This document shows, piece after piece, positions 1,168 to 64,000 of a DNA stretch of 64,000 nucleotides; within the stretch, counting starts at the first letter, position 1; each line of letters opens with the position of its first letter. Under the pieces are notes generated by a model that was given only the letters and a program-made list of their open reading frames with translations, made no database searches and had not been told where the DNA came from. The translations under genes were made by a program, and so were the position numbers. This DNA comes from a virus: positions 89,390-153,389 of the IMG/VR virus record IMGVR_UViG_3300014913_000007; one strand, given 5' to 3'.

Positions 1168-1240
1168 CCTGGAATGAGGTTAATGGTTAGCCTGTCTGAC
1201 TTCCAATCAGAATGCGTCAGTTCGAATCTGGCTTCCAGGA
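1168..1240 (+). tRNA. tRNA-Gly (anticodon TCC)
   Basis: Acceptor arms CCTGGAA and TTCCAGG pair over seven bases with discriminator A. The anticodon stem TCTGA/TCAGA closes loop CTTCCAA, anticodon TCC, reading GGA. The T arm is GTCAG-TTCGAAT-CTGGC. All four arms can be drawn. No encoded CCA. Confidence 0.9.
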
Positions 1241-1245
1241 CTCCT

Positions 1246-1318
1246 GCTCGAATAGTATAAGTGGGCAATACACTGGTTTTGTAATCCAGAATTTTCGGAT
1301 CGTGGCCGAATTCGAGCT
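1246..1318 (+). tRNA. tRNA-Thr (anticodon TGT), slightly aberrant
   Basis: Acceptor arms GCTCGAA and TTCGAGC pair perfectly. The anticodon loop TTTGTAA gives TGT, reading ACA. The top anticodon pair is T-T, leaving four good pairs (CTGG/CCAG). The T stem TTCGG/CCGAA is perfect, but the T loop is ATCGTGG and lacks the usual T54 and A58. It may be functional but has drifted. Confidence 0.75.
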
Positions 1319-1324
1319 AATTAT

Positions 1325-1353
1325 TTGACATTACTTAGTATTTATAATATAAT
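1325..1353 (+). promoter_or_regulatory. Consensus promoter TTGACA-17-TATAAT
   Basis: TTGACA at 1325-1330, a 17-base spacer and TATAAT at 1348-1353 form a perfect housekeeping-sigma promoter. The ATG of the HNH reading frame begins six bases after the -10 box, so the transcript would begin at the start codon. Confidence 0.85.
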
Positions 1354-1359
1354 AGTTAA

Positions 1360-1728
1360 ATGTCCAAACTTAAAGTCTGTAAACAATGTGGAAAAACTTT
1401 CCCCAAATCAGGTATGTACTTAGGTAAGTGAAGGAACTTCTGTAATAGGAGTTACTTTCTTTTATGCTCCTCAACTAGGTTGGCCAGACAGTATTTACTG
1501 GAGAAACATGGAAACAAGTGTTTTCAATGTGAAGTAACCGGATGGAATGGACGGCCAGGACCTGTAGTTTTAGATCATATAAATGGAAACCCTTATGATC
1601 ATAGTTTAGAAAATATTAGATTGCTCTGTTGTAATTGTGATGCACAAACTAATACATATAAAAACAAAAATAAAGGTAAAGGCAGGCACACTAGGAGATT
1701 ACGATACAAACAAGGTAAAAGCTACTAA
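1360..1728 (+). pseudogene. HNH homing endonuclease interrupted by in-frame TGA
   Basis: A single frame runs from ATG 1360 to TAA 1728 with one stop, TGA at 1429-1431 (codon 24). Before the stop are a CKQC zinc knuckle and a basic stretch; after it follow FCNRS, then the HNH core: CFQC, LDHINGNPYDHS, and NIRLLCCNC. The parts together match a free-standing phage HNH nuclease. TGA is a genuine stop in this genome (it ends recA), so the gene is probably inactivated by one nonsense change; a TTG at 1480 would allow only a C-terminal piece. Read-through cannot be excluded. Confidence 0.75.
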
Positions 1729-1759
1729 TAGCTAACTCAACTCTCAGCTTCAGCTCCAT

Positions 1760-2065
1760 TTATTTTGGTAATAAAGTCTCAACGAGTACATGATAATCTC
1801 CGAATATAATACATGTACCATAGTCATTAATAGAAAACTGACCAAAATTAGGTGATATACCTTCCACACTCTCCTTAAAATAACTAAAGGGTACTTCAAG
1901 CAAGGAACTATTTCCCATACATAATACAACCTCTTCAGTGTTTACATCTATAAACCCACTTATTACATGCTTCTCTGGGTTATCTTTCTTTAATACTTTA
2001 GTTATATTATTAGGATCTAATTTTGCTCTTCTACTAATCATATGTTCCTCACTCAATGTATTCAT
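1760..2065 (-). CDS. DUF2442-like small protein
   Basis: Encodes 101 residues from ATG 2065. The C-terminal half contains VPFSYFKE and then a block ending GTCIIFGDYHVLVETLL, resembling the DUF2442 pattern in which a short tryptophan/aspartate strand is followed by a strand ending near a Leu-Leu. Homologues often accompany toxin-antitoxin genes, but no toxin partner is adjacent. Family assignment is tentative. A TTGACA-17-TATTAA promoter lies upstream. Confidence 0.45.
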   Translation of the reverse strand: MNTLSEEHMISRRAKLDPNNITKVLKKDNPEKHVISGFIDVNTEEVVLCMGNSSLLEVPFSYFKESVEGISPNFGQFSINDYGTCIIFGDYHVLVETLLPK

Positions 2066-2094
2066 TAGTTATTACAAAATAAGCTAGTAATATA

Positions 2095-2123
2095 TTAATA
2101 CATAATTTAAAGATAAATGTCAA
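2095..2123 (-). promoter_or_regulatory. Minus-strand promoter TTGACA-17-TATTAA
   Basis: Read on the minus strand, TTGACA (2118-2123) is followed after 17 bases by TATTAA (2095-2100). It lies 30 bases upstream of the gene starting at 2065. Confidence 0.6.
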
Positions 2124-2149
2124 GTTACCATGTATTATATGTACCATAG

Positions 2150-2160
2150 TGTACTATAAT
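2150..2160 (+). promoter_or_regulatory. TGTAC-TATAAT box, leaderless start
   Basis: TGTAC directly abuts TATAAT (2155-2160), and the ATG of the next gene lies exactly six bases later at 2167. No convincing -35 hexamer is visible. There is no Shine-Dalgarno site. Confidence 0.55.
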
Positions 2161-2166
2161 ATAAGT

Positions 2167-2529
2167 ATGGATATATTCCAATTAATCAAACAATGCTTAG
2201 AAACAGCTGAGGATACACCACATTTAAGCGTACTGGACGATTACATGCTATCTTATACCCTGGACCCAGATGATGAAGATCTAGCCACAGCGAGAGAATA
2301 TGACCTTGATCGAGTAACTTATAAAGGATTAATAGAAGGTGAACAAATATTTATAGGACCAGATAGACAACCTATAGCACTTAAAGAGTCTGAATATAAA
2401 AAGAAATGGGTGATGATTTCAACTACTAAATTAAAAGGACAAATATTACTTGCTGAATATGAAAAGCTAATCCAGCAAGTTTATAATCAGTTACCTGAAG
2501 CTTTGAAAGATAAAGTCTTTATTAAATAA
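2167..2529 (+). CDS. Hypothetical protein, acidic, 120 aa
   Basis: The chosen start is ATG 2167, because the upstream GTG at 2149 lies within the -10 promoter region. The product is acidic in its first half (DYMLSYTLDPDDEDLATAREYD) and ends in a helix-rich segment. No domain is recognised. The gene is transcribed alone and lies convergent with the next minus-strand gene; its message would begin at the ATG. Confidence 0.55.
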   Translation: MDIFQLIKQCLETAEDTPHLSVLDDYMLSYTLDPDDEDLATAREYDLDRVTYKGLIEGEQIFIGPDRQPIALKESEYKKKWVMISTTKLKGQILLAEYEKLIQQVYNQLPEALKDKVFIK

Positions 2530-2531
2530 TA

Positions 2532-2861
2532 CTAAAAAGCAAAGCATTCAAAATAAAATGCTGAATCAGATGGGGAGGAACTTATTCTTCTAGTACCTAC
2601 TCTAATAGTATTAATATCTGAACTATTAGTTAATTCTCTCCAACCAGTTACAGAACCATTGGAACTTTGCTGCTGATCTTCAAAAGATCTAAACTGTGTT
2701 TCAGGATCATTTCCTACATTACCCGTGAACATTCTTATAAGTTGCACTCTTTTACCAAAATTATGATTAAAATAATATTGAATTTCCGAAGTAGAGGTAC
2801 TCCTGGTTAATACCTCAGATTGATAATGTAAAACATTACTTTCATTTGTTAATCTAATCAT
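2532..2861 (-). CDS. Hypothetical protein, Ser/Thr-rich
   Basis: Encodes 109 residues rich in Ser, Thr, Asn and Gln (for example STSTSEIQYYF and QQQSSNGS), a composition typical of phage structural or surface-exposed proteins. No motif identifies it. It is convergent with the preceding plus-strand gene, with only two bases between the stop codons. Confidence 0.5.
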   Translation of the reverse strand: MIRLTNESNVLHYQSEVLTRSTSTSEIQYYFNHNFGKRVQLIRMFTGNVGNDPETQFRSFEDQQQSSNGSVTGWRELTNSSDINTIRVGTRRISSSPSDSAFYFECFAF

Positions 2862-2932
2862 AATATAATTCCTCGTATTTATTATCTATTCTTTATATAT
2901 ATAGTATAGAAGTAATATTTTTAATATAATAT

Positions 2933-2961
2933 TTGACATTAATTTTTATTTGTACTATGAT
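2933..2961 (+). promoter_or_regulatory. Promoter of the tRNA cluster, TTGACA-17-TATGAT
   Basis: TTGACA at 2933-2938 and TATGAT at 2956-2961 are separated by 17 bases. TGTAC directly precedes the -10 box. It faces the six tRNA genes that start at 3106. Confidence 0.8.
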
Positions 2962-2970
2962 CTATTTGTT

Positions 2971-3057
2971 ATGTTAATATCAACTCTAAAACATATACTA
3001 TTCGATATAAAGCGGTTCCATAACCGCCATAAAAGACGCTTTGCGTCTACAATATAA
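2971..3057 (+). CDS. Possible 28-residue basic leader peptide
   Basis: The first ATG after the tRNA-cluster promoter opens a 28-codon frame ending at TAA 3057. The C-terminal half is basic (KRFHNRHKRRFAS) and is encoded by the two hairpins in the leader. No Shine-Dalgarno site is visible. It may be a leader peptide or chance. Confidence 0.2.
   Translation: MLISTLKHILFDIKRFHNRHKRRFASTI
3012..3048 (+). promoter_or_regulatory. Two tandem hairpins in the tRNA leader
   Basis: GCGGTT-CCAT-AACCGC (3012-3027) and AGACGC-TTT-GCGTCT (3034-3048) are two perfect six-base-pair stems seven bases apart, between promoter and first tRNA. No T run follows, so they are not classical terminators. They could be RNA-processing or stabilising structures. 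Confidence 0.6.
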
Positions 3058-3105
3058 TCAAACAAACAATTCAATTAGGGTAGAAGTAATTAAGTAAATA
3101 AATTT

Positions 3106-3174
3106 GGCTGTATAGGTTAATGGTAGACTAGGAGACTGTCGATCTCTTTGCCGGGTTCGATTCCCGTACAGCCG
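3106..3174 (+). tRNA. tRNA-Asp (anticodon GTC)
   Basis: Acceptor GGCTGTA/TACAGCC, discriminator G. Anticodon loop CTGTCGA, anticodon GTC, closed by GGAGA/TCTCT. T arm CGGG-TTCGATT-CCCG. First gene of the six-gene cluster. Confidence 0.9.
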
Positions 3175-3180
3175 TTCTTT

Positions 3181-3254
3181 TAGGGAGATAGCTCAATGGT
3201 TGGAGCACTCGGCTCGTATCCGAATGGTTACGGGTTCAAGTCCGGCCTCCCTAC
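3181..3254 (+). tRNA. tRNA-Thr (anticodon CGT), imperfect stems
   Basis: Acceptor TAGGGAG/CTCCCTA pairs perfectly and the D stem GCTC/GAGC is intact. Anticodon loop CTCGTAT gives CGT, reading ACG. The base of the anticodon stem is a C-A mismatch, and the T stem (ACGGG/CCGGC) has two mismatches, so this copy may be weakened. Confidence 0.7.
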
Positions 3255-3290
3255 TTTTTAAAGTAAACTATTCTTTACATTATACCAACT

Positions 3291-3345
3291 TAATGTATAG
3301 AATACTAGACATTATCTGCTATACTGTCTAAGATTCTATACATTA
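3291..3345. repeat. Long inverted repeat / 55-base hairpin
   Basis: TAATGTATAGAAT (3291-3303) and TAGACA (3306-3311) are mirrored by TGTCTA (3325-3330) and ATTCTATACATTA (3333-3345). This gives 19 base pairs interrupted only by a 2x2 internal loop, with a 13-base apical loop. It lies between two tRNA genes and has no T run after it. Confidence 0.85.
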
Positions 3346-3354
3346 TAGCATTTT

Positions 3355-3428
3355 GCTGCAGTAGTCTAACTGGATAGGCATCTCGCTTCTAACGAGACAA
3401 TATGAAGGTTCGAGTCCTTCCTGCAGTG
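3355..3428 (+). tRNA. tRNA-Arg (anticodon TCT)
   Basis: Acceptor GCTGCAG/CTGCAGT with one G-T pair. Anticodon stem TCTCG/CGAGA, loop CTTCTAA, anticodon TCT, reading AGA, a codon favoured by AT-rich genes. T arm GAAGG-TTCGAGT-CCTTC. Confidence 0.9.
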
Positions 3429-3437
3429 CTTTATATG

Positions 3438-3510
3438 GTGACCATAACTTAACTGGTTAAAGTGCCTGACTGTGAATCAGGTGATTCGGGTTCAAATCCC
3501 GATGGTCACA
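3438..3510 (+). tRNA. tRNA-His (anticodon GTG)
   Basis: Acceptor GTGACCA/TGGTCAC pairs perfectly; a G precedes the first base, as expected for the extra 5' G of tRNA-His, though the facing base is A. Anticodon stem CCTGA/TCAGG, loop CTGTGAA. T arm CGGG-TTCAAAT-CCCG. Confidence 0.9.
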
Positions 3511-3516
3511 CCCTTT

Positions 3517-3589
3517 GCCCTGGTAGTATAATCAGATAAAACACTCAGCTACGAACTGAGAGATGAAGGTGCAAGTCCTTCCTAGGGTG
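3517..3589 (+). tRNA. tRNA-Arg (anticodon ACG), CCA encoded next
   Basis: Acceptor GCCCTGG/CTAGGGT with two G-T pairs, discriminator G. Anticodon stem CTCAG/CTGAG, loop CTACGAA, anticodon ACG. T loop begins TGC rather than TTC. Bases 3590-3592 are CCA, the only encoded CCA tail in the cluster. Confidence 0.88.
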
Positions 3590-3597
3590 CCAATTAT

Positions 3598-3668
3598 TCC
3601 CTCTTAATGTAACGGTAGCATACCTGGCTTTTAACCAGTTTGTGGGAGTTCAAATCTCTCAGGGGGAA
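3598..3668 (+). tRNA. tRNA-Lys (anticodon TTT)
   Basis: Acceptor TCCCTCT/AGGGGGA with one T-G pair, discriminator A. Anticodon loop CTTTTAA, anticodon TTT; four good stem pairs (CTGG/CCAG). T arm GGGAG-TTCAAAT-CTCTC. Last gene of the cluster. Confidence 0.85.
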
Positions 3669-3706
3669 CTTTTTCAATTTCTAAGTATTAACTAAGTGCT
3701 ATACAC

Positions 3707-19468: not shown

Positions 19469-19765
19469 TTATCCCACACTAAACGCTGAAGCTGTAAATT
19501 GAGAGTAAGTTTTTCCAGCGAATTCATTTTCACTGAAACTACTTAATACTTTTATCCAGGAACCTTCTGGTACCTCTCTTAATCTATCAGCTATATCATA
19601 CCAAGCTACTATCTTAATACTTTGATATCCGTTCCTTCCTGACTCTTGTAGTCTAATCTCTCCCTTTCCCATAGGATGTCTATCTCCTACTACATTATAA
19701 GTATATCCAAATAAGTAACCTTCAAAATAACAATTATTTTTTGGTACTTTAGAGTAGCTTTCCAT
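19469..19765 (-). CDS. OB-fold, SSB-like protein
   Basis: 98 residues from ATG 19765; GTG 19774 is an alternative. The segment [11 protein letters not shown], then GKGEIRLQ, a [31 protein letters not shown] stretch and a final strand follow the bacterial SSB strand order. It is shorter than SSB and lacks the acidic C-terminal tip. A role in binding single-stranded DNA or the primosome is inferred from fold and place between primase and DnaJ-like genes. Confidence 0.5.
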
Positions 19766-20852
19766 ATTCCACACATTTTTCTACTTCTGTATTTTGATAT
19801 ACTCTAAGATTACTTAAACATTTGGTAATCTGCTCCTTAGAATTATCATCTGGATCTCCTGATTCTAACCTAGCAATACTTATTTTCATACCTGGTAATT
19901 TTTCTAATGAATTTATGACTCCTTTTTCTGCAGCTTCTCCAGACTCTACTAAAAATACTACATTGCAGCAATACTTATATAAAAGTCTTGCCTGATTGTT
20001 GGTTAAATTAGATCCTCTAGATGCTACAACATTTTTAAAACCATATGAATACATCCTAATTGCTGAAAGTTCCCCTTCAACTACTATTAAACTATCATTT
20101 ACTAAATTATTTTTTGCTCTATTTAAATTAAAAAGTACTCCACCTTTCTTAAAGTTTGCTACCATATCATACTTTGCTATCTTCTTCTCTTTCCCCAAGC
20201 TGTTAATAACTACTTCAGGATAATTAAGTACTCCATCCATTCTTCTAGCATTAACTCCAACTAGGTTACCAAATTCATCAAAGGCAGGTATTCCCATCCT
20301 TAATATGTTGTAGTTATCTAAGCAGGGATAAAATTGAAAGGTAGATATAGTATCTTCGTCAGTATAATTCCTTGACTCTAAATACTTCTCTACATAGTTA
20401 TACCCTTCTTCGTAGTATCCTGGAAAGGTAGTCAATACTTTTAAACTTTCTAATCTGGTATTCTTCATTGCGGTGTAATCTTTTCGTACTTCTGCTGCAG
20501 CAAGATAATCAGAGTAACCTTCAGAGTCTCCGGTCTGTAAGTCAAATCCAAACATAGTTGATAAAGTCTCTACTGCTTCCTTAAATTCTACATTTAGCTT
20601 ATTCATAACAAATGCGTACACATCTCTAGGTCCATCTTTTCCACATTCCTTAGTGAAGCATGTCCACATTCCCTCACTCCTTTTCCAAGAGAATCCTGTA
20701 GGATTGTCTCCAGAATGTAATGGACATGGACAACGTATTTCAAAACCATTATCTGTCATAAGAGCAGGAGATACTCCACCTATAGAAATTAAAACTTCTT
20801 TTGGATCTACTACTTGCTTTAATTCTTCTATTGATTCTTTTTTATAAAACAT
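19749..20852 (-). CDS. DnaG-type primase with altered TOPRIM site
   Basis: 367 residues. The N-terminal CHC2 zinc module has C41, C43, H46, C65 and C70. The RNA-polymerase-like core contains IPAFDEFGNLVGVNAR, and the TOPRIM domain starts with VVEGELSAIR (E259). The DxDxAG metal motif reads ESGEAAEKG (303-311), so the two usual aspartates are Glu and Gly. A DPDD loop follows. No helicase domain is fused. It lies directly after the DnaB-type helicase gene. Activity of the TOPRIM site is doubtful. Confidence 0.88.
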   Translation of the reverse strand: MFYKKESIEELKQVVDPKEVLISIGGVSPALMTDNGFEIRCPCPLHSGDNPTGFSWKRSEGMWTCFTKECGKDGPRDVYAFVMNKLNVEFKEAVETLSTMFGFDLQTGDSEGYSDYLAAAEVRKDYTAMKNTRLESLKVLTTFPGYYEEGYNYVEKYLESRNYTDEDTISTFQFYPCLDNYNILRMGIPAFDEFGNLVGVNARRMDGVLNYPEVVINSLGKEKKIAKYDMVANFKKGGVLFNLNRAKNNLVNDSLIVVEGELSAIRMYSYGFKNVVASRGSNLTNNQARLLYKYCCNVVFLVESGEAAEKGVINSLEKLPGMKISIARLESGDPDDNSKEQITKCLSNLRVYQNTEVEKCVEYGKLL

Positions 20853-20861
20853 AAAAGTACC

Positions 20862-22406
20862 TTAAAATAAGTCATCATCATCTACTGGTAAAATATACTC
20901 TTCTTTTACAGTTACTTGTTCAATATCTGTATGTTTTATTACATTTTCTACTTTTTCTACTTTAAATGACTCATTAATCAATCTAGCATATTCTGCAGGT
21001 GTTGTTGTTTCAACATTGATTGCTGAATCCTCACCAGTCTCCTCATTAATGTCATCAATGAAATCTTCTGCTTCCTGTAATAGGTTACAAGGTTTCCAAA
21101 ATCTTACAGGTGTTCTTGCCTTTCCACCCGATCTAGTTTTCCAGCTTGTTAACCAATGGGTTCCGTATTTACGGTGATCTCCTGCATATTCTAGTTCTTT
21201 TACTGTTTTAGCTCTAAACTCTATTAGATTATTACAATACCTGAGGATTCTGTCACTATCTGCTACCTTAAGGTTCCTAGTATTTATCTGACAGGCAGCA
21301 AGAACTGGGATATTTAACTTTCCAGCTGTAGTTTTTAATGCTACAGTTAAGTCACCTAAAACCTGATCCTCCCTTCTATTCTTAATCTGACCATTATCCA
21401 TATTAGTATCTAATTTGATGTAATCAAAAATCACTAAACCTATATTGTGTTTAGCTTTGTGGTATTGAATTCTACTACACAATTTACTTGCATTAAATTC
21501 AGGCATGTATTCGTGGAAAAAGGTCTCTCCATTTTCTATTTCAGTTATAACTCTATCAAGTATTAACTTACTTTTTGGATCATGATAGGCAATACCATTT
21601 GAAATATCTCGCTCCCTTATCATTGATCTCATGGCTAGTAATCTAGCTGCATCTTCTTCTGAATACATTTCAGTACTTATGAAGTATACTGGGACTCTAT
21701 GTGCATTTGCAAATGCTACTTCCTCAGCTATATTTAATAGAACCGTTGACTTCCCTGCCCCAGCTATGCCAGCAACTACCGTTAAGGCTCCTGGCATTAA
21801 CCCATTAATCGCCTCATCTAGTTTTTTAAATCCAGTGTGTAACCCTCGAATATTGGTAGGATTAGCAGCCCATTTCTCTACATACTCACGTATAGTGGTA
21901 TTAATGTGAACTGCTTCCTGTTCCTTGTCTTCATATCCTCTTAATTTATTGATCCTAGCAAGTACCTCATCCATTAATTCATTTGAATCAAGTGATTCTT
22001 GCACGTCCGTTCTATTCTGCTGTACTATTGTATGTGAATCCTTTATTGCCTCATTTAAAGCGAATTTCTTATACGCTTCTCTTACTTTGTTTAGATATAG
22101 TTTATAGTTGCTAAGCTTAAAGTTATGTTCACAAACCATCATTAGGTAGTCTGCTCCAACTCCTGAGTCTTTTAAACCAAGCTTGGCACATTCTATGTAA
22201 ACAGTATCTATATCTAAATTTTTAAGGTCAGTTTGATCAGATAGTAGACACATGGCTGTATATATAATCCTATGTGGTTCATATAAGAAATACTCAGATC
22301 CAATAAGTTGTCTAGTCTCTATAAGTAAATCTTCATTACTAAAAATTAAACCTAGCAACCCTCTCTCATACTGAGAGTAAAACTTTGATCTCTCGTCATT
22401 ATTCAT
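20862..22406 (-). CDS. DnaB-type replicative helicase
   Basis: 514 residues. An N-terminal DnaB-like helical domain (about 8-110) and linker lead to the RecA-type motor: GLHTGFKKLDEAINGL, Walker A GIAGAGKST (213-221), VPVYFISTEM, Walker B IGLVIFDYIKLD, then a CQINTRN sensor region. It unwinds the fork and would pair with the primase encoded ten bases downstream. The C-terminal 80 residues are acidic. Confidence 0.93.
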   Translation of the reverse strand: MNNDERSKFYSQYERGLLGLIFSNEDLLIETRQLIGSEYFLYEPHRIIYTAMCLLSDQTDLKNLDIDTVYIECAKLGLKDSGVGADYLMMVCEHNFKLSNYKLYLNKVREAYKKFALNEAIKDSHTIVQQNRTDVQESLDSNELMDEVLARINKLRGYEDKEQEAVHINTTIREYVEKWAANPTNIRGLHTGFKKLDEAINGLMPGALTVVAGIAGAGKSTVLLNIAEEVAFANAHRVPVYFISTEMYSEEDAARLLAMRSMIRERDISNGIAYHDPKSKLILDRVITEIENGETFFHEYMPEFNASKLCSRIQYHKAKHNIGLVIFDYIKLDTNMDNGQIKNRREDQVLGDLTVALKTTAGKLNIPVLAACQINTRNLKVADSDRILRYCNNLIEFRAKTVKELEYAGDHRKYGTHWLTSWKTRSGGKARTPVRFWKPCNLLQEAEDFIDDINEETGEDSAINVETTTPAEYARLINESFKVEKVENVIKHTDIEQVTVKEEYILPVDDDDLF

Positions 22407-24941: not shown

Positions 24942-26105
24942 TTAGTTCATTCCCTGGATTAAAAAAATTAGCTCCCTATTAGGAGAACATAGAGTTACTC
25001 TATTGTTGCTGCTGTTAAAGTAAAACTCTGACATTTTTTCTATACTACTTAACTTCTGTATACTAGTGGTAAATAAAGATCCGTTTATCTTCACCTCCGA
25101 GTCACATCTAATGGTTGAAGGTAGACCTTCACTGGAATTCTTATCAGTTCTTATATTAAAACTTCCCTCTTTAAATTGCAAGTATACTTTATTATGAACA
25201 TCATTTGATAGATGAGTTAATGTACTAACTATCGATGGGATAGGAGGTAAATCTATAGAACCTATATGCTGAGAATTTTCATCTAAATTAAAAAATGCAT
25301 TTGGATCATTAATTCCATATAAAGTATTTAATGTAGGTACCTTCATACCTCTTTGAGAGGTCTCAACGTATAGAGAAGACCTGGAAGCAGAAATCTTAAT
25401 AGATTCCGTCCCATTTGTGAAATTTTTTATCAAAGCCAATATAACATTAGACAATACCACTCTAAAGTGTTTATCCAAAGTGTGTTTTATTACAGGCGAC
25501 TGAAATTTTGAAGCCATAATACTATCTGTACCTACTAAAACAAAATCTTGACCCACGATCTCTAAAAGACATCCGTTACCATCTCTAGATGTAGCATCTG
25601 CTTTAAATAGATTACAATTAATTATAGCTTGGTGTATTTTTTCTGTACTTATCTCTACAAAGTTTTCTCTATCCTTCATCAACTTCGAAAAAGTAGACAC
25701 GTCCTTTCCAATTTCAAGTATAGCATGAGCTAATCTTAGTTGAGTAGATTTGCTCTCTGAATAGAAGACTTCCCAACTAGTATGTAGAATAGATTTAGAA
25801 AACTTAAAAGATACTCTCCGAGTATAAGGAAATTTATCTTCCTTTTTAAATTCAGATACATTAATAGAGGATAGCTCTTTAACTAATATGGTGGAGTTTC
25901 CTTCACCCTCAGAAGAAATTACTGGTACATCTTCGACGAAGATACAAGGTATGTCAGTTTTCTCAATCTTAGATTCATAAAATACCTTTAGTTTAGAAGC
26001 TTCCAATAAAAAAGTTATGGAAGCTGCTGGATCACCAGAAGCTACTCCAGACAGTCTCTTTAAAAGTCCATTTAAGACTAATGTATCTATTGCAAAGTTG
26101 AACAT
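24942..26105 (-). CDS. DNA polymerase sliding-clamp-like protein (DnaN-like)
   Basis: 387 residues, close to the 366-380 of bacterial beta clamps. The features that fit are an overall three-fold strand-rich plan, LEIVGQDFVLVGTDSIMASKF in the middle (compare the LxATDGHRLA segment), and a C-terminal strand set ending RELIFLIQGMN like the clamp's VMPM/R terminus. It would tether the family A polymerase. Assignment is by pattern and gene context, without a diagnostic catalytic motif. Confidence 0.6.
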   Translation of the reverse strand: MFNFAIDTLVLNGLLKRLSGVASGDPAASITFLLEASKLKVFYESKIEKTDIPCIFVEDVPVISSEGEGNSTILVKELSSINVSEFKKEDKFPYTRRVSFKFSKSILHTSWEVFYSESKSTQLRLAHAILEIGKDVSTFSKLMKDRENFVEISTEKIHQAIINCNLFKADATSRDGNGCLLEIVGQDFVLVGTDSIMASKFQSPVIKHTLDKHFRVVLSNVILALIKNFTNGTESIKISASRSSLYVETSQRGMKVPTLNTLYGINDPNAFFNLDENSQHIGSIDLPPIPSIVSTLTHLSNDVHNKVYLQFKEGSFNIRTDKNSSEGLPSTIRCDSEVKINGSLFTTSIQKLSSIEKMSEFYFNSSNNRVTLCSPNRELIFLIQGMN

Positions 26106-40834: not shown

Positions 40835-43800
40835 TATGGCCTATACCTCGCTAAATTTTGTCTTGCTTTCTCTTCTCGGTTTCGTGCTGCGTCAGATACT
40901 GCTTCCACTAAAGATTCACTTCTAACTTGATTACTTAGTAAATCACTGTATGAATCAAACACACCTGCATCTACTTGTCCTAGTAGCCCTGCAGCTGAAG
41001 TTCCCATTGCTCCAGCTATTTTGTCTGTAAGTCTTCCAAATTGGAATAAACTGTAAGCACTTCTACCTCCCTTTCCATCTGAAGTACAAGTATCATGCGA
41101 CTGGTTTTTGTAGACATAGTGAGCAGTCCTTGAACCACTTCCAAAACCTATCACTCCTAAATTTACAACACAGCTTTTAACTACTTGCTCAGTGGTTCCA
41201 TGACACGCATGAAATCCGTCCGGTTGCCAACCTGCTGGTAGTGGTACTGGAGCAACTATAGAATCAGCATTAACCCACTTATCTGAAGCCTCGACATTCA
41301 TATTGATAGATGTTCCCTCTAAACCAGTAGATAGATTATATTTAGATAATAAATACTGATCGCTTGCATTTACAAAGTACTGAAGTGGCATTTTTAATAG
41401 CTTCTCTACGGACTTTAACTTATCTTCCATATTTTCTAATAAGGTTATCTGACGTTTCTCACTTAACTCCACAGTACTATCTACAAATACGGCTGGTGAG
41501 GTATCTTCTTCATAATATTTTAATGTATCATAAGTCATCCAATCTGATGCCCAATGTCTACGAATCTTTCCAAACGTTCCAACTTCATAGTCTAAAGATG
41601 CCATTCCAGGTTGCCATAGCTCTGCAATTCCAACCGTTTCAAGTGAGTCTGGTTGATCTCTTAAGGCTCCCACTCCAGATAAAAACTTTCTCTGAGAGGG
41701 TAAGTACTGTGAATTACCTGTTATACTATCTGGATCACTTGTTCCATATCCTTTACTTAGAATGTATTTTTGATCTAAACAGGAGAACTCTTCTACAGCT
41801 CCTTCATATCTTCTCACCTTAACACTAAAACTACTTAGAGAGAAACCTGTAGCATCATCTCTACTTCCTATAAAAACCTCTATCTGTTTAGTTTTAAATG
41901 CCTCCATATTAGTTGAATCAAATGAAAAGTTTCTTATTACATCCTCGTTATCTACTTCTTTAATTGAAATCCTAGGCTTTGATACTAATTCTAAAGTTGT
42001 ATCTCCAACTAGTGCTACAGAAAATTCTGGATCTGTAAATGGTCCAGCTATTGGCTGAGAAAATACGGTTCCCTGCTCTCTACCATATAATTTATAACTA
42101 AACTCTATAGAACTAACTTCTACTACACTTGCAAAGGTGACTGTTATAGAAGAAGGTCCAATCTGTCCCTCTCCTTTACTAGGGTCTGGTAATGATAAGT
42201 CATCTAGAGAATAAGGTTTCCAATCATATACATAAGCTTCTACTTCTCCAAAGAATAACTCACTAATTGCATCCAGTTCCCTTCCTGACTTAGCTTCTCT
42301 AGTTACTAAATCTATACTTGGATAATTTCCAAAATTTGCTGTAGGCATCTGGCTAACTGATTGATCCTCAACTGGAAGCTCTGAATACGGGAAAAGTCTT
42401 GGGCTAATTGCTAATACCTCAACGCCTTTAAAAAATCCTTTCCAAATTACTTCTTCATCATCTAAGTTATTACCAGTTGGTCCATTTGTAGAATAAATAT
42501 ACACAATAGATAAATCAGATACCACATTACTGTAAAAGGTAATGTCCTCTAAATCTTCTAAACTCTCAGGAATTGACTCTGCAGCTTTAGCTGATACTGG
42601 TTCATAAACTGGTACTATCTCAGGTTCTATTCCTAATTCACCTAATGCTGCTATTATCCCCGTCACTGTAGTTAAGGTATAGATTGCAGGATTACCTTCC
42701 TTATCTGTTTCCTGTATCTCTCCGTCTGCTTTATCGTAATACAAGGGTGCGTTCTCATCAATAAAAATCTTTCCGTACTCTACTTCATTTCCATCCTCAT
42801 CTAGTTCTGGCATCTCAAGAGTTACTGTCTGTAAGCCTTCATCTGGACCTATCTCTACAGGTCTAGAGAATCTATCTGTCAGTCTTGATCCATTTACTGT
42901 AGGCTTCTGAAATACCACTCCATTTAGATAACTTCCTTTTACAGTGTTTGAGTGCTCCCTACCTACATCACTACTTGGCTCTATATATCCCCATAAAGTA
43001 GTGTACTCTTTTGGATTAAAGTATAGACCCTCAGGTGGCCAGCGAGTTCCATAAGCTAAGTTACTGGCTCCAGGTCTTCTAACTTGAAAAGTAGTATCAA
43101 AGTCTTCCCTCTCAAAGGAGACTACTTCAGAATTTGTAGTACTTGTACCAGTTTCTTCTGATAGTATCTCAAGGTGTCCTTCATAAGAGTTATAGTCTTT
43201 CTCCGTTAGGGATGAACTCTCAGTTGAATAATCAAATAAAGTTCTAGGTTGAGTATCATCAAATATACTACTACTACCTAGAAAAGGTACAGCTGGCATC
43301 CACCCAGCACCTACTTTTAATCCACCTACTGCTGGATATAAGTATTCTCTGTAGTGCATAGTTCTGAATATACGTATATGCTCTCTTCCTTTATTTCCAG
43401 AAGGTGGGAACGCCCAATCTTTAGAAACATAAGCTGACCATAAATATAAATCTAAGTACTCACTTACTGGTCCACGTAATCTAGCTAGTCCAGCCCAGGT
43501 AGACTCCTGTCTATTCTTTGTTCCAAACGTCCACTCAAACACACAAGATGAGAAAATTCCAGCTACGTTGTGCTGTATAGAATAAGGTCTCTGTCTTTCT
43601 GGTCCTCTATATCTCTCATAGTAGTCCTTCTCCAGGTCTATTCTCTGATTTAGTATTATACCTCCATCATTGATTGCTATCTGAGCAGGAGTACAGGTAG
43701 AATAGGGGGTAAACAACCAAGTCTTCTCATGATCTCCACATGCTGGAGTATATGTAGCTACTCCCGATGACTTCTGACTACCATCTCCAGGATCAAAAAA

Positions 43801-46408: not shown

Positions 46409-47206
46409 TTAATCACTGAAATTTTTAAAGATATTTAAGGCTGTCATAAAGTCCCACTTAGCTAACTTTAATACATTGTATATCTTGTCTTTATCTTGTA
46501 AATTCAATCGTTTAGCTAACTTATCTACCATGTCTTTTCTTTCTCTATTTAAAGCTTCACGGTAGGTTCTATCATTACTAATCTGTGCATCTAATGGTCC
46601 AAGCTTTAAGGCTTTAACTACCTTAGATGTTGATTCTGCGTCTGCTAGTGCCCTGTGTGCTGGTAAAACCTGTTGTAGGTTCAACTTACTGAGTGCTTTT
46701 TTTAACCCTCCCCTGCCACCATAACATAGCTTTACGTTAACGAATCTTGGATCGAATTCAATTGGTGGAAATCTTTTACTAATGTATCCCTTATACGACT
46801 TGGCTACTATCTCATCTTGTAGCCAAGTAGCATCTCTTCCCCAACATGTCCAAACAAACTCTCTAGGATCTGGAAGCTCTTCTTTTAGAATTGCTGCAGT
46901 TACATTTAAGTTTTTAGAGAGGTGAATCTCCTCCTGTGAAATGTGAGTTAAGTTCTTGCAGTAGTCAGATAATATTGGATAAAATATAGGTTTTACTGTT
47001 TTGGTATGTTTACTGATAGAGTTATACTCTAAGTCTAGTATCTCTACACCTATTTCAGTAATCTCCATCTTATCCCTAGGTTGACTATCCCAGGACTTAC
47101 CATCCCAACATGTAAGCTCTAGATCCATCACTGCTAAGTACTTTTTGTCCTCTAACTTACCAAACTTATTTACTATCTCTTCATTGTGAAACTTAGTATT
47201 CTTCAT
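46409..47206 (-). CDS. DEDDh 3'-5' exonuclease (DnaQ/ERI-1-like)
   Basis: 265 residues. Catalytic residues are D28 and E30 (AVMDLELTCWD), D125 (CWGRDATWLQDE) and the HxxxxD pair H184/D189 (PAHRALADAEST), in the DEDDh order. LTCWDG is typical of the KapD/ERI-1 branch, which trims RNA or single-stranded DNA 3' ends. The C-terminal 60 residues form a helical appendix. It is the second exonuclease here besides the polymerase domain. Confidence 0.9.
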   Translation of the reverse strand: MKNTKFHNEEIVNKFGKLEDKKYLAVMDLELTCWDGKSWDSQPRDKMEITEIGVEILDLEYNSISKHTKTVKPIFYPILSDYCKNLTHISQEEIHLSKNLNVTAAILKEELPDPREFVWTCWGRDATWLQDEIVAKSYKGYISKRFPPIEFDPRFVNVKLCYGGRGGLKKALSKLNLQQVLPAHRALADAESTSKVVKALKLGPLDAQISNDRTYREALNRERKDMVDKLAKRLNLQDKDKIYNVLKLAKWDFMTALNIFKNFSD

Positions 47207-47213
47207 ATATCTC

Positions 47214-47591
47214 CTATTTATAGGGTTCCTCTTCTACTTGAAACTTACCAGTAGCTCTAAATCCACGAATAAGTACCTTAACTTTCTTTTCATTGTCGTA
47301 ATAACCTATGAACCAACCAACAACTGGGGAAGATGTTATTCTAATTCCACCTGCTAACTCATCTCCTATAGATATTTCACGTAGCTCAGTCTTTCCTGGT
47401 GGTATATACATTCCCTTATCTACTAATTCATAGTGCTTATGTCTACATTTCAAACCTACAATCTTAATATCTTTTTTATTCGGTACTTTTCTCCAGTACT
47501 CTGCCTCTTCCATTGTTATGACAGTACCATCATTATAGACTACGTACCAACCACCTTCTAACTTATTTATTTTTTCATGTGTGTAAGGCAT
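47214..47591 (-). CDS. Hypothetical strand-rich protein (125 aa)
   Basis: Begins with a short helix then strands (GGWYVVYNDGTVITMEEAEYW, GWFIGYYDNEKKVKVLIRGF). The compact beta fold has no recognised family. It overlaps the end of the primase-like gene by 25 bases and precedes the exonuclease gene, so all three are in one operon. Confidence 0.5.
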   Translation of the reverse strand: MPYTHEKINKLEGGWYVVYNDGTVITMEEAEYWRKVPNKKDIKIVGLKCRHKHYELVDKGMYIPPGKTELREISIGDELAGGIRITSSPVVGWFIGYYDNEKKVKVLIRGFRATGKFQVEEEPYK

Positions 47592-48904
47592 CTTGCTCCT
47601 AGCTCCTCTTTTATTTTTTTATGCATGTACTTACTGTAAGGCTCATCATAAGTATCTAGATACCCATTCTTATAAAGGAAATCTGAAAACCTTTGATAGC
47701 CTCCTCCAAAATCTTTAAGCTCTGGTCCTACATACTTAAAGTTAGAACAGTTACCTCCCGAGTATCCTCTAGATAACATCGTCAAAATATGATCTTCCTT
47801 AAGCCTCTCCATTACTATACTATAGTTTTCGCTGTGAAGTCCAATCTCATTTACTAGCTGACTTGTGGATAGAAATATTTCATCCTTCTCAGTCTTAAAT
47901 TCTTTAATATGTTTAAATAGTTGGAATACAGCTTTTTGCATTTTGTATAGATTGCTTCCAGAAAAAGTTTCAACTATGTATTCACATGTCCAACGCTCTA
48001 GGAACATTCTATCTAAGTTCTTCTTTCTCTCTAGGACACTTGCATTTAGACCGTCTATTAAGGATTCTATTCTTTTATAGATATGTTGAGGGTTAATATT
48101 ATAATCAGTAGATTTGCCATTATTTTTCACGTCAATCCAACCAATGAATAGGGACTTTGCCACTTCTTTATTTAAATTAGCCTTAAAGAAAAAGTAAGGT
48201 GCCATGTCAGTTAGGATATCGTTGCAGGTTCCAGGTTCCAGTATTCCATTTTTGTATATTAAATCAAGTTGCTTCATCTTATTCTCATTCAGTGCTCTAC
48301 TGTGCCTGCAAAGCCTTTTATATCCAGGAGTTGCTTCATTTATAAAAGGTAAGTACGCAAATTCTGCTATTTCTTTTATGGCTAATTCTAATCCCGCTAA
48401 CCTTGGCACATTAACGGGTTCTAAAGAGCTATCTAAAAGCTTACTTCCTTCTCCAAAAGGTAATCTAATATTTCCGTTACTGACGAAAACCTCTACAGGA
48501 TCAACTCTAGGTATTATTTTATGATTGTGTAATGTTCCCTTAATTCTATCTTTAATTATAGATGGTGATGCATGTTTAAAATAAAGTAGTACATGCACAT
48601 CTCCAGAGTTTGAGGACTGTACGGGTATCTTTGGACACTGAAATAGTAGACAAGTTTTGTTAATAAACTTTTTAAACTCTTCTACACTTAATCCTTCAGG
48701 TCTATCAAAGTCTAAAACTGCGAAGCGTTTCTTCTCATGCTTATTAAGAATTTGTCCAACTATCTTATCTCCACGTAGATGCTTATCTATATATGAGTTA
48801 GATATTTTATATTCAGAACACCTCTTCCACTCTTCTCCTATACGTAAGGACAGTGTAGAACCCTTCTGTATGAAAGCTTTTCTAAACTCGTGTGTAAGGT
48901 TCAT
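47567..48904 (-). CDS. Archaeo-eukaryotic-type primase (AEP) superfamily protein
   Basis: 445 residues. FAVLDFDRPEG supplies the DxD metal site (D65, D67). SSNSGDVHVLLYF gives the S-G-x-x-H motif (S100 to H104), and DPVEVFVSNGNIRLPFGEGS matches the third AEP segment ending in a strand and RLPxG. A helical C-terminal half with a possible winged-helix follows. AEP enzymes synthesise primers or act as primase-polymerases. No helicase is fused. It is unusual beside the DnaG-type gene 28 kb away. Confidence 0.75.
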   Translation of the reverse strand: MNLTHEFRKAFIQKGSTLSLRIGEEWKRCSEYKISNSYIDKHLRGDKIVGQILNKHEKKRFAVLDFDRPEGLSVEEFKKFINKTCLLFQCPKIPVQSSNSGDVHVLLYFKHASPSIIKDRIKGTLHNHKIIPRVDPVEVFVSNGNIRLPFGEGSKLLDSSLEPVNVPRLAGLELAIKEIAEFAYLPFINEATPGYKRLCRHSRALNENKMKQLDLIYKNGILEPGTCNDILTDMAPYFFFKANLNKEVAKSLFIGWIDVKNNGKSTDYNINPQHIYKRIESLIDGLNASVLERKKNLDRMFLERWTCEYIVETFSGSNLYKMQKAVFQLFKHIKEFKTEKDEIFLSTSQLVNEIGLHSENYSIVMERLKEDHILTMLSRGYSGGNCSNFKYVGPELKDFGGGYQRFSDFLYKNGYLDTYDEPYSKYMHKKIKEELGARCLTHMKK

Positions 48905-48906
48905 TG

Positions 48907-51366
48907 CTAAAGCCTATCAGCAGCTTCAGTTGCTAATGCAGATCTTACTCCATCTATTAATTGTATGTGTCCTACCAGTTCAGAATCTTTGAACTTCTCA
49001 ATAGTCTGAGCCAGTCCATTAGAGGTTCTAGATACATAGTAGTTATCAATTTGATCTAAGTCTCCCAACAATATAATTTTAGAGTCGTCACTAATTCTAG
49101 TTACAATTGTCTTCACATCTTGTATTGATAAGTTCTGAGCTTCATCTACAATCATTATAGAATTTCTAATGTTTCTACCACGAATATATTGTAGAGGTTC
49201 TATCTCTATAATAGGTTTTTTACCATCTCTAGCATCAGTCATGTAGTCCATTACGTCATTACCATCATCCCCCATTACAAAATCTATAGCGTCTTGAAGT
49301 GGCATAAGGAAAGGTCTAAGTTTATTGCTCAGGTCTCCCGGCAAGAATCCAAGCTTATCTTTACCGCCCATAACTGTTAGAGATCTACTGAGTACTACTT
49401 TACTATACTTAGTTTCAGAGTTTCCTATCACCTGCGCCAATGCTGCTGCTATGGAGATCAGGGTATTGTGTGTAACAACATAGTTGTCAGTTACATAGAG
49501 ATGATCCTTGTCATCAATTAGAATACACTGACATTCTTTCTTTCCTATCTTTTTAATATCTTTTATACCTAACCCCAAGTTTTTAGTATACTGATCTTTC
49601 TTTTTTATTCGTTCCTTCTTTCTTTTTAGTGAAAATAGACTTCTCTTATCTCTATGTCTAATGTTAACTATATAATGCAATCTTCCCTCTACTTTCCTAC
49701 CTGCTTTATCCTTGTAATATGGAAGCTTCTCTGCTATTCTAGCTATACCACCTAACTCCCATATAATGGATTGAACCTGTGTAGCTAACTTCTTACTAGA
49801 AGAACTAAAAGATACTGTACTTAATGTATCTGCATAACCATCTGTATCCATTAAACCTTGTAATAGTTTCAATTTCGAAGATAAACTAGCTTTCAAGTAC
49901 ACCTCTGGTATGCTTTTCTCATAAGAGTACTTCCCATATAGGTCCAAAGATTCCAGCTTACCAACTAGTCTGTTTTTTGTTTTACCTTTTCCAGTATGTT
50001 TAACTAGCAAGTCTACAATAGAGTAATCATATTCTCCATGTTTAGTCTTTCGCATTTCAAAAGACTTTCCTAAAATTCTTTTTAGTTTATTGAGTATTTC
50101 TGCATCTGCAGTTGAGAACGTTGGGGTTCTAGTACGAAAGCACCCATCTCCAATTAAGGCTCCTAGCACATAAGGATCGATTGGTAAGTCTTCTCTCTCC
50201 TTCTCTATTAAGTCTAAACTAAGATTTACTAGTGGAACTCTACCTCTAGACTTATTGTGTGACTTTGATTTAAACTTGATTAGTTGTTTAAGATCAGCAA
50301 CTTCTATCTTCGATCCGTCATCCCTATCAAGCCCTATAACTGACCAAAGGTGGTCTTCACAGCACTCTACACTTCTACCATCTACAAACTCCACTCTGTA
50401 GACTTCCTTCTCGCCTTGAGGAAACACTTGAAGTACTTTGACACTTTTTCCCGTAGGTGTTAAAACCTTAGAACCTTTAACTATATCCCCCATCCTTACA
50501 TAACCTTCAGGTGTAAGTACATTTGAGTCCAGTGGCTGTGCTTTACCAGATCCAGCTCTTCCAGTTAATGTTACCATTTTTACACTTGGATCCATCAATA
50601 ACTGCATAGCATACGCTTGCTCATCGTTTAAGGCTTTTATATTATCTATTTGAAACTCTCTTGGTATTCTAAATAGCTTTCCATTTCTATGGTAGCATCT
50701 AACTTCAGACTTACCTGTAGCTCCACCTTTTACTATACAAAATTCATTCTCTTGTAGTTTATACTTCTTACTAACCTTTGTACCTGTCCACACATGGGCC
50801 TTATGTAAACTGTCTACTAAAAGTTTAGGTGTTTCTTGTATAGGTTCTTCCCTATGTCCAGTATACTTAGTCAACTTAAGTAAGTTTTCTTGATACTTAG
50901 AAGTTTTTATATCATACATAGCTGCTCTCAATCCTAGCAGGATATCATTAGTAACTAAGAGAATTTCTTTACCCTTTTTTAAACTCTGTTTTAATTTCAT
51001 ACATGTTCCAAGTATCCTATCATCTCCTTTTGTTGGATCTAGCGGAGCTTCTAGCTCTGACATGTCTTCAGCTACAAACCTTACAGTTACTCCGGTGTCT
51101 GTATTTAGAATACCTTCGCTTATATTTCCTACCTGTTCAGAGAACCACTCCAGTGCTTTGGAGGCTTTCCGTATGTTAACTGCTTCGCTTCCACCAAGTA
51201 GTTTATCCTTTACTTTATCAAGTTCTTGAAGAACTGTGCTTGTAATAATTACAATATTATCTTTGTAATGACTCAAACAAGAAGGGTCATGTATTAAAGA
51301 AGATGTATCTATTACTACGAGGTTTCCTTTTCCTTTTGGATTATAATTTGATTCCATCAGTGACAT
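48907..51366 (-). CDS. phoH: PIN-PhoH ATPase interrupted by an intein
   Basis: 819 residues before splicing, about 460 after. The N-terminal PIN nuclease domain has VVIDTSSLI (D20), LQELDK (E48) and VTND (D141). The PhoH domain has Walker A GRAGSGK (269-275), cut by a 359-residue intein, completed by T635 onward, then FLPGDLSNKLRPF and Walker B IMIVDEAQ. PIN-PhoH proteins act on RNA, unwinding and cleaving it; phage copies are common but their role is unsettled. The ATPase cannot work until splicing. GGAGTAAT lies before ATG 51366. Confidence 0.95.
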   Translation of the reverse strand: MSLMESNYNPKGKGNLVVIDTSSLIHDPSCLSHYKDNIVIITSTVLQELDKVKDKLLGGSEAVNIRKASKALEWFSEQVGNISEGILNTDTGVTVRFVAEDMSELEAPLDPTKGDDRILGTCMKLKQSLKKGKEILLVTNDILLGLRAAMYDIKTSKYQENLLKLTKYTGHREEPIQETPKLLVDSLHKAHVWTGTKVSKKYKLQENEFCIVKGGATGKSEVRCYHRNGKLFRIPREFQIDNIKALNDEQAYAMQLLMDPSVKMVTLTGRAGSGKAQPLDSNVLTPEGYVRMGDIVKGSKVLTPTGKSVKVLQVFPQGEKEVYRVEFVDGRSVECCEDHLWSVIGLDRDDGSKIEVADLKQLIKFKSKSHNKSRGRVPLVNLSLDLIEKEREDLPIDPYVLGALIGDGCFRTRTPTFSTADAEILNKLKRILGKSFEMRKTKHGEYDYSIVDLLVKHTGKGKTKNRLVGKLESLDLYGKYSYEKSIPEVYLKASLSSKLKLLQGLMDTDGYADTLSTVSFSSSSKKLATQVQSIIWELGGIARIAEKLPYYKDKAGRKVEGRLHYIVNIRHRDKRSLFSLKRKKERIKKKDQYTKNLGLGIKDIKKIGKKECQCILIDDKDHLYVTDNYVVTHNTLISIAAALAQVIGNSETKYSKVVLSRSLTVMGGKDKLGFLPGDLSNKLRPFLMPLQDAIDFVMGDDGNDVMDYMTDARDGKKPIIEIEPLQYIRGRNIRNSIMIVDEAQNLSIQDVKTIVTRISDDSKIILLGDLDQIDNYYVSRTSNGLAQTIEKFKDSELVGHIQLIDGVRSALATEAADRL
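49465..50541 (-). mobile_element. Class 3-type intein with LAGLIDADG endonuclease
   Basis: The intein runs from A276 to N634 of the host protein. Block A starts AQPLDSNVLTPEGYV; block B is EDHLW with W341; the end is VTHN followed by T635. C614 (CILIDDKDHLYV), T632 and W341 form the W-C-T triad of class 3 inteins, which start with a residue other than Cys or Ser. The endonuclease part has LGALIGDG (401-408) and LQGLMDTDG (502-510), so homing may be active. Joining the exteins restores GRAGSGKT. Confidence 0.93.
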
Positions 51367-63820: not shown

Positions 63821-64000
63821 ATGACAAATTGGGATGACGAAAAGGAGTGTTTAAAAGCTGTTAAAGAAAATGGATGGGCTTTACAGTATGTAAAAAATCA
63901 AACTCCAGAAATCTGCCTAGAAGCTGTTAAAAAAGATGGATGGGCCTTAGAATATGTAAAAAACCAAACTCCAGAAATCTGTTTAGCTGCTGTTAAACAA
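63821..64000 (+). CDS. DUF4116 repeat protein, start only
   Basis: ATG 63821 opens a frame that runs off the window; 60 codons are visible. It contains two near-identical 23-residue units: GWALQYVKNQTPEICLEAVK and GWALEYVKNQTPEICLAAVK, the DUF4116 repeat, a helical repeat abundant in large viruses and some bacteria. TATATT (63811-63816) lies four bases before the ATG and there is no Shine-Dalgarno site. Role in phages is unknown. Confidence 0.85.
   Translation, partial: MTNWDDEKECLKAVKENGWALQYVKNQTPEICLEAVKKDGWALEYVKNQTPEICLAAVKQ

Follow-up and report, generated by a model that had tools for sequence, protein, structure and literature searches.

A divergent AEP-superfamily protein in a phage whose DnaG-type primase has lost its TOPRIM DxD motif

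The window analyzed here, the final 64 kb of a virus record of 153,389 bases, encodes a protein that almost certainly has the AEP fold and belongs to the AEP superfamily, the archaeal/eukaryotic class of primases, which has no structural kinship with DnaG. This protein is a divergent stand-alone AEP. What is new is the pairing of a divergent, plasmid-like AEP with the loss of the DxD motif from the DnaG of the same phage, related phages keeping that motif. The best overall explanation, which we consider reasonably likely, is that the protein is a stand-alone AEP primase or primase-polymerase that would perform much of the priming for the phage; its activity, its template, the impairment of DnaG and any takeover of priming are matters that we infer.

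Assignment to the AEP superfamily

The initial annotation had proposed that this phage carries an AEP-superfamily gene as a second primase-type gene beside its DnaG-type one, pointing to DFD, SGDVH and RLPFGEG in AEP order. Our analysis bears out both the order (residues 65-67, 100-104 and 147-153) and the assignment, and it adds E138, which had not been listed (Table 1). The Pfam AEP-TOTE family (PF22548) matches residues 30-125 with an E-value of 1.5e-5 and 25.2 bits, below the curated cut-off of 27 bits. A profile of 48 cyanobacterial AEPs, drawn from a genome scan that returned 80 cyanobacterial loci and built with the phage protein left out, scores the phage AEP at 37.0 bits (E 2.3e-10); the top of 2000 shuffled sequences reached 7.2 bits, and the next of the 463 ORFs of the virus record 4.2. 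A second match to this profile, at GYKRLCRH, was out of order and non-significant, and was rejected. By tblastn, the cyanobacterial plasmid hits of the phage AEP are weak, yet all of the motifs are common to both. Single-sequence searches of the PDB and NCBIfam with the phage AEP gave nothing useful. A five-sequence profile containing it matches the structures of CAPP (CRISPR-associated Prim-Pol) with an E-value of 0.0023, and a 42-sequence profile, which also contains it, does so at 1e-8, a value that is partly transitive because the members are mostly cyanobacterial.

Table 1. Positions, in the window, of the features discussed in the text
Feature	Position	Strand	Remarks
AEP-superfamily primase/polymerase gene	47567-48904	-	445 aa, ATG start
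AEP catalytic domain, about residues 1-170	48395-48904	-	profile match residues 23-165
Motif I (hhhDhD), AVLD65-F-D67, metal ligands	48704-48712	-	invariant in 42 sequences
Motif II (sxH), S100-G-D-V-H104, nucleotide binding	48593-48607	-	S100, H104 invariant (42 sequences)
Motif III acid E138 (VEVF; V137-E138), third metal ligand	48491-48493	-	invariant in 42 sequences
R147-LPFGEG (residues 147-153)	48446-48466	-	R147, P149 invariant (42 sequences)
PriCT-like helical domain, about residues 220-290	48035-48247	-	invariant G220, N228, L231; predicted helices 227-241, 246-260, 272-289
Putative winged helix for DNA binding, about residues 320-395	47720-47947	-	suggested by sequence only; model there of low confidence
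PIN-PhoH2 gene with intein, upstream of AEP gene	48907-51366	-	
125-aa gene	47214-47591	-	no assigned function; overlaps AEP 3' end by 25 nt
KapD/ERI-1-like DEDDh 3'-5' exonuclease gene, just downstream (two genes 3' of AEP)	46409-47206	-	Pfam RNase_T 1.3e-6
DnaG-type primase gene (CHC2 zinc ribbon + TOPRIM)	19749-20852	-	Pfam Zn_ribbon_DnaG 3.2e-9, Toprim_2 1.6e-7
Altered TOPRIM DxD, E303-S304-G305	19938-19946	-	codons gag tct gga
DnaB-type replicative helicase gene, adjoins DnaG gene	20862-22406	-	

Predicted structures agree with the profile evidence. An AlphaFold model of the full-length protein has a pLDDT of 55 overall, 71-81 for residues 61-110 and 67-81 for residues 61-130. Its leading PDB matches by Foldseek are to CAPP and then to HP0184, LigD-Pol and Prim-PolC; in BFVD, it retrieves phage primases and the TOTE-type primase of Gordonia phage GordTnk2. 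A second model, of residues 1-290 and based on 53 sequences, has a pLDDT of 69, with most of the PriCT-like helix blocks at 83-88. It matches CAPP with an E-value of 3.7e-7 (highest TM-score 0.63, normalized by target length), and the same three structures come next. The initial annotation had held that a predicted structure without the AEP catalytic fold would count against it; both of these models lead with AEP matches.

The features that mark the AEP superfamily are present in the phage protein: motifs I, II and III, and a predicted RRM-like palm fold, the elements of which (E, strand; H, helix) are E61-66, H74-88, E92-96, E103-108, H114-127 and E137-141 in the AlphaFold model. The phage DFD aligns with the DxD of CAPP, and the E138 region aligns with the EIFP of CAPP and with the E[IV]FP present in AEPs from cyanobacteria and phages. 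Invariant columns in the 42-sequence alignment are W26, G50, D65, D67, S97, S98, S100, H104, E138, F140, R147 and P149, joined in the helical region by G220, N228 and L231. The RLPFGEG motif is common to the phage AEP and the cyanobacterial plasmid AEPs (RLPxxxGSxLLD); the PrimPol-PV1/All3500 supergroup, whose members cluster with PolpTN2/All3500 homologues, has a conserved Arg motif IV, for which R147 is a candidate residue in the phage AEP. Pfam PriCT found no match in this protein, and the term “PriCT-like” is accordingly a putative one.

Genomic setting and comparison with known AEPs

The AEP gene sits in the string PhoH2-AEP-125aa-KapD-like, in which gene borders overlap or are closely spaced. 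Given the 2-nt gap between the PIN-PhoH2 stop and the AEP start codon, and the 25-nt overlap with the 125-aa gene, the AEP gene is probably translated as a member of this string. The exonuclease also matches NCBIfam KapD (9.7e-10, under the KapD cut-off). The neighbourhood as a whole is a PhoH2/ClpP/exonuclease gene string with no adjoining helicase, and some 27 kb separate the AEP gene from the DnaB/DnaG module.

Several other genes on the virus record deserve mention; positions prefixed L007, L008 and L009 refer to loci of the record. The intein of PIN-PhoH2 occupies about residues 276-602, and a second intein, with Hint and LAGLIDADG domains, is found in a UvsW-like helicase gene (L007:1202-3742, minus strand). 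An RF-1-type (GGQ) peptide-release domain protein of 125 aa (L009:13531-13908, minus strand), eight tRNA genes (window 1168-3669), an RNA ligase gene (L008:6502-7650), an RtcB-like ORF (L007:16446-17633) and a CCA-adding-enzyme-like ORF (L007:18937 on) constitute a sizeable translation and tRNA-repair set, the last two members having been recognized by eye only. The record also encodes ribosomal protein S2 (L008:3024-3908, plus strand, corresponding to 42024-42908 of the record; Pfam E 2.5e-74, over the NCBIfam rpsB cut-off), a hybrid sensor histidine kinase with a receiver domain (L008:4864-6450, plus strand) and at least two repeat proteins whose repeats start TNWDDEKECLKAVK (window 63821-64000 and L008:14259-14684, both on the plus strand).

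The best profile score of the phage AEP, 37 bits, is with plasmid AEPs of the cyanobacteria Nostoc, Calothrix and Leptolyngbya, which are 730-860 aa in length and annotated as hypothetical. The two have in common DxD, SSxSGxxH, ExF, RxPxxxGSxLLD and the PriCT-like G-x7-N-x2-L. The phage protein, however, is borne by a phage, has only 445 aa, is only about 16-26% identical to them, and has neither their FPN...Y insert in motif III nor their long C-terminal portion. CAPP (PDB 7nqd, 7nqf and 7p9j) is the top match among solved structures by profile and by fold, with DxD and EIFP aligned; identity is about 17%, the architecture differs, and a scan of flanking ORFs recognized no cas gene. DNA primase-polymerase activity has been proven for CAPPs, and in MpCAPP it is abolished by the D177A+D179A substitution (PMC8211822).

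Stand-alone AEPs of other phages (Dinoroseobacter R26L/R5C, Pseudanabaena Pan1, and Acinetobacter, Klebsiella and Pelagibacter HTVC027P phages) display the same kinds of motif (DID, KSxSGGxH and EVFP), are 508-588 aa long and are annotated as primases; most of the genes examined adjoin a helicase gene or lie within a gene or two of one. The profile of these proteins scores our phage AEP at only 11.7 bits, which places it outside their group. The coexistence of an AEP and a DnaG has a precedent in Bacillus thuringiensis phage 0305phi8-36 (orf181 and orf236, respectively; PMC2147016). In that phage, the AEP adjoins DnaB and the DnaG is without a helicase-interaction domain, whereas here it is the DnaG, with its altered DxD, that adjoins DnaB. 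A survey of jumbo phages found AEP and DnaG in different groups (PMC7824862).

The DnaG-type primase and the related viral contigs

The DnaG-type protein, which also matches the NCBIfam dnaG domain (4.6e-30, under the cut-off), has an intact CHC2 zinc ribbon (C43, H46, C65 and C70) and retains the invariant catalytic Glu of the TOPRIM domain (E259, in VVEG). The initial annotation described the TOPRIM site as altered, and so it is: E303-S304-G305 stands in place of DxD. The D303E replacement is conservative. D305G takes away the second metal ligand, which is present in all 24 DnaGs compared. These comprise 18 orthologues encoded on related viral contigs (14 once near-duplicates are removed), in which the motif reads DND, DGD, DPD, DAD or DSD, and six more distant phage DnaGs, which likewise all keep DxD. 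Two base changes are required to convert GAT or GAC to the gga of G305, and thus a single sequencing error is unlikely. The TOPRIM Glu is regarded as the general base and the DxD as the Mg ligands (PMC4538821); the D309A variant of E. coli DnaG still makes primers in vitro (PMC7367122).

A general decay of the window's DnaG was considered and rejected: its mean identity to relatives is 27.6%, compared to 29.7% for DnaB and 26.1% for RecA, and its divergence is therefore no greater than theirs. By this comparison, the protein is under constraint, and it may still work. Eleven of its changes occur at otherwise invariant columns, and five of these (261, 265, 303, 305 and 308) flank the two TOPRIM catalytic motifs. 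Between the RecA-like gene and the structural genes of the window lies a gene for a 387-aa protein with no family match (24942-26105, minus strand); its position suggests a divergent sliding clamp.

The related contigs were found by a scan with the glycosyltransferase of the same gene neighbourhood, and they are fragments of 12-116 kb. A DnaG orthologue is present in 17 of the 18, and a further relative (L128) brings the orthologues to 18. Searches of 18-19 related records with the AEP profile and the phage AEP sequence, and with the Pfam families AEP-TOTE and Prim-Pol, detected no AEP; the own-genome positive control of the AEP-profile search used an alignment containing part of the query and so was not independent. 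Because the records are fragments, this absence is suggestive only. A weak PF22548 match in one contig (G044) was traced to an ORF that resembles HAD phosphatases and has no AEP motifs. PhoH occurs in one of 19 related records, and the PhoH-AEP locus is not common to the relatives, which makes a before-and-after comparison of the insertion site impossible.

Viral-contig searches with the AEP, the exonuclease, the spliced PhoH, the AEP alignment and a 1777-aa protein retrieved no relatives, and the phage AEP had no match in phage records; nor did searches of viral contigs, phages and plasmids yield a close relative of it. A radical SAM protein of the virus record (L008:10565-11536, plus strand) has relatives of 45-69% identity in many viral contigs. 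Those contigs were dismissed as kin, having few or no other genes in common with the phage, and no AEP.

Proposed role and alternatives

We propose that the AEP has an RRM-like catalytic core, in which D65, D67 and E138 would be the two-metal ligands and S100 and H104 would bind nucleotide, and that after this core come the PriCT-like helices and perhaps a winged helix. On single-stranded phage DNA, it would start a new strand by coupling two template-paired nucleotides, and would then extend the dinucleotide into a primer. Because the DnaG, although it retains the zinc ribbon, Glu259 and a position next to DnaB, has lost its DxD, the AEP would most likely be responsible for a large share of priming, whether on the lagging strand or in repriming at stalled forks. 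The protein is very probably active as a catalyst, and probably primes phage DNA in some role. That it took over the main replicative priming is somewhat doubtful. In favour of such a takeover, the DxD is lost, among the DnaGs compared, only in the phage that bears the AEP; against it, the correlation is a single case (n=1), of one genome set against fragments. The distance of the AEP gene from the DnaB/DnaG module, the constraint on DnaG, the conservative nature of D303E and the primers made by the E. coli D309A variant likewise weigh against it. The loss of DxD and the presence of an AEP thus fit a takeover of priming but do not prove it. A more specific version, which is rather speculative, is that a takeover is in progress: an AEP from plasmid-like sources would have replaced DnaG catalysis in a DnaB-dependent replisome, with DnaG kept as a non-catalytic zinc-ribbon and helicase partner, perhaps presenting the template to the AEP. 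The initial annotation had suggested that priming moved to this enzyme, or that the enzyme serves repair or lesion bypass. The AEP and the specific loss of DxD support the former idea in part, and the latter is the main rival reading, that of repriming or repair.

According to that rival, which we regard as unlikely on balance, the AEP is an auxiliary Prim-Pol, akin to PrimPol and Prim-PolC, that acts in repair, in repriming past lesions or in gap filling, and the E-S-G DnaG makes the routine primers. The accessory location of the gene, apart from the replication module, is consistent with this, as are the lack of general decay in DnaG, the activity of the E. coli D309A variant, the structural matches to LigD-Pol and Prim-PolC, and the KapD-like exonuclease nearby; the loss of a metal ligand kept in every other DnaG compared argues against it. 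Another possibility, a decidedly less probable one, is that the protein is a plasmid-type initiator that primes only at an origin or on special DNA (for example, in an episomal stage), its C-terminal domains recognizing the site. The nearest sequence family, the cyanobacterial plasmid AEPs, points in this direction, with RLPxxxGSxLLD...LEP and PriCT-like features in common, as does the possible winged helix. Yet no partition or plasmid gene was recognized beside the AEP gene, and its surroundings are lytic in style (structural genes, DnaB, PolA and RecA).

The company of a PIN-PhoH2 and a KapD/ERI-1-like exonuclease in one closely packed string, and the TOTE conflict-system name of the closest Pfam family, could be read as signs of an RNA-processing or counter-defence set, and hence of a conflict-related or RNA-directed role for the AEP. 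TOTE systems have helicase and nuclease domains fused to the AEP, whereas the 445-aa phage protein has no helicase or nuclease match; PADLOC returned no hit for it, and comparable AEPs of other phages lie in replication cassettes. We consider such a role very unlikely. It is more improbable again that the AEP fold is catalytically dead and retained as a DNA-binding protein. The shortened motif-III region, without the FPN...Y insert, and the presence of D102 instead of Gly at the small position of sxH could be taken to favour this idea, but D65, D67, H104 and E138 are intact and invariant in the alignment, and Asp is ordinarily classed as a small residue.

A stand-alone AEP that does much of the priming is the reading we prefer, and it touches on a long-standing problem. 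DnaG and AEP answer the need for priming in unrelated ways, and the manner in which one gives way to the other in evolution is an old question. With both enzymes in one phage, and the metal site of DnaG altered only where the AEP is present, this replacement becomes testable with a single phage and two purified proteins.
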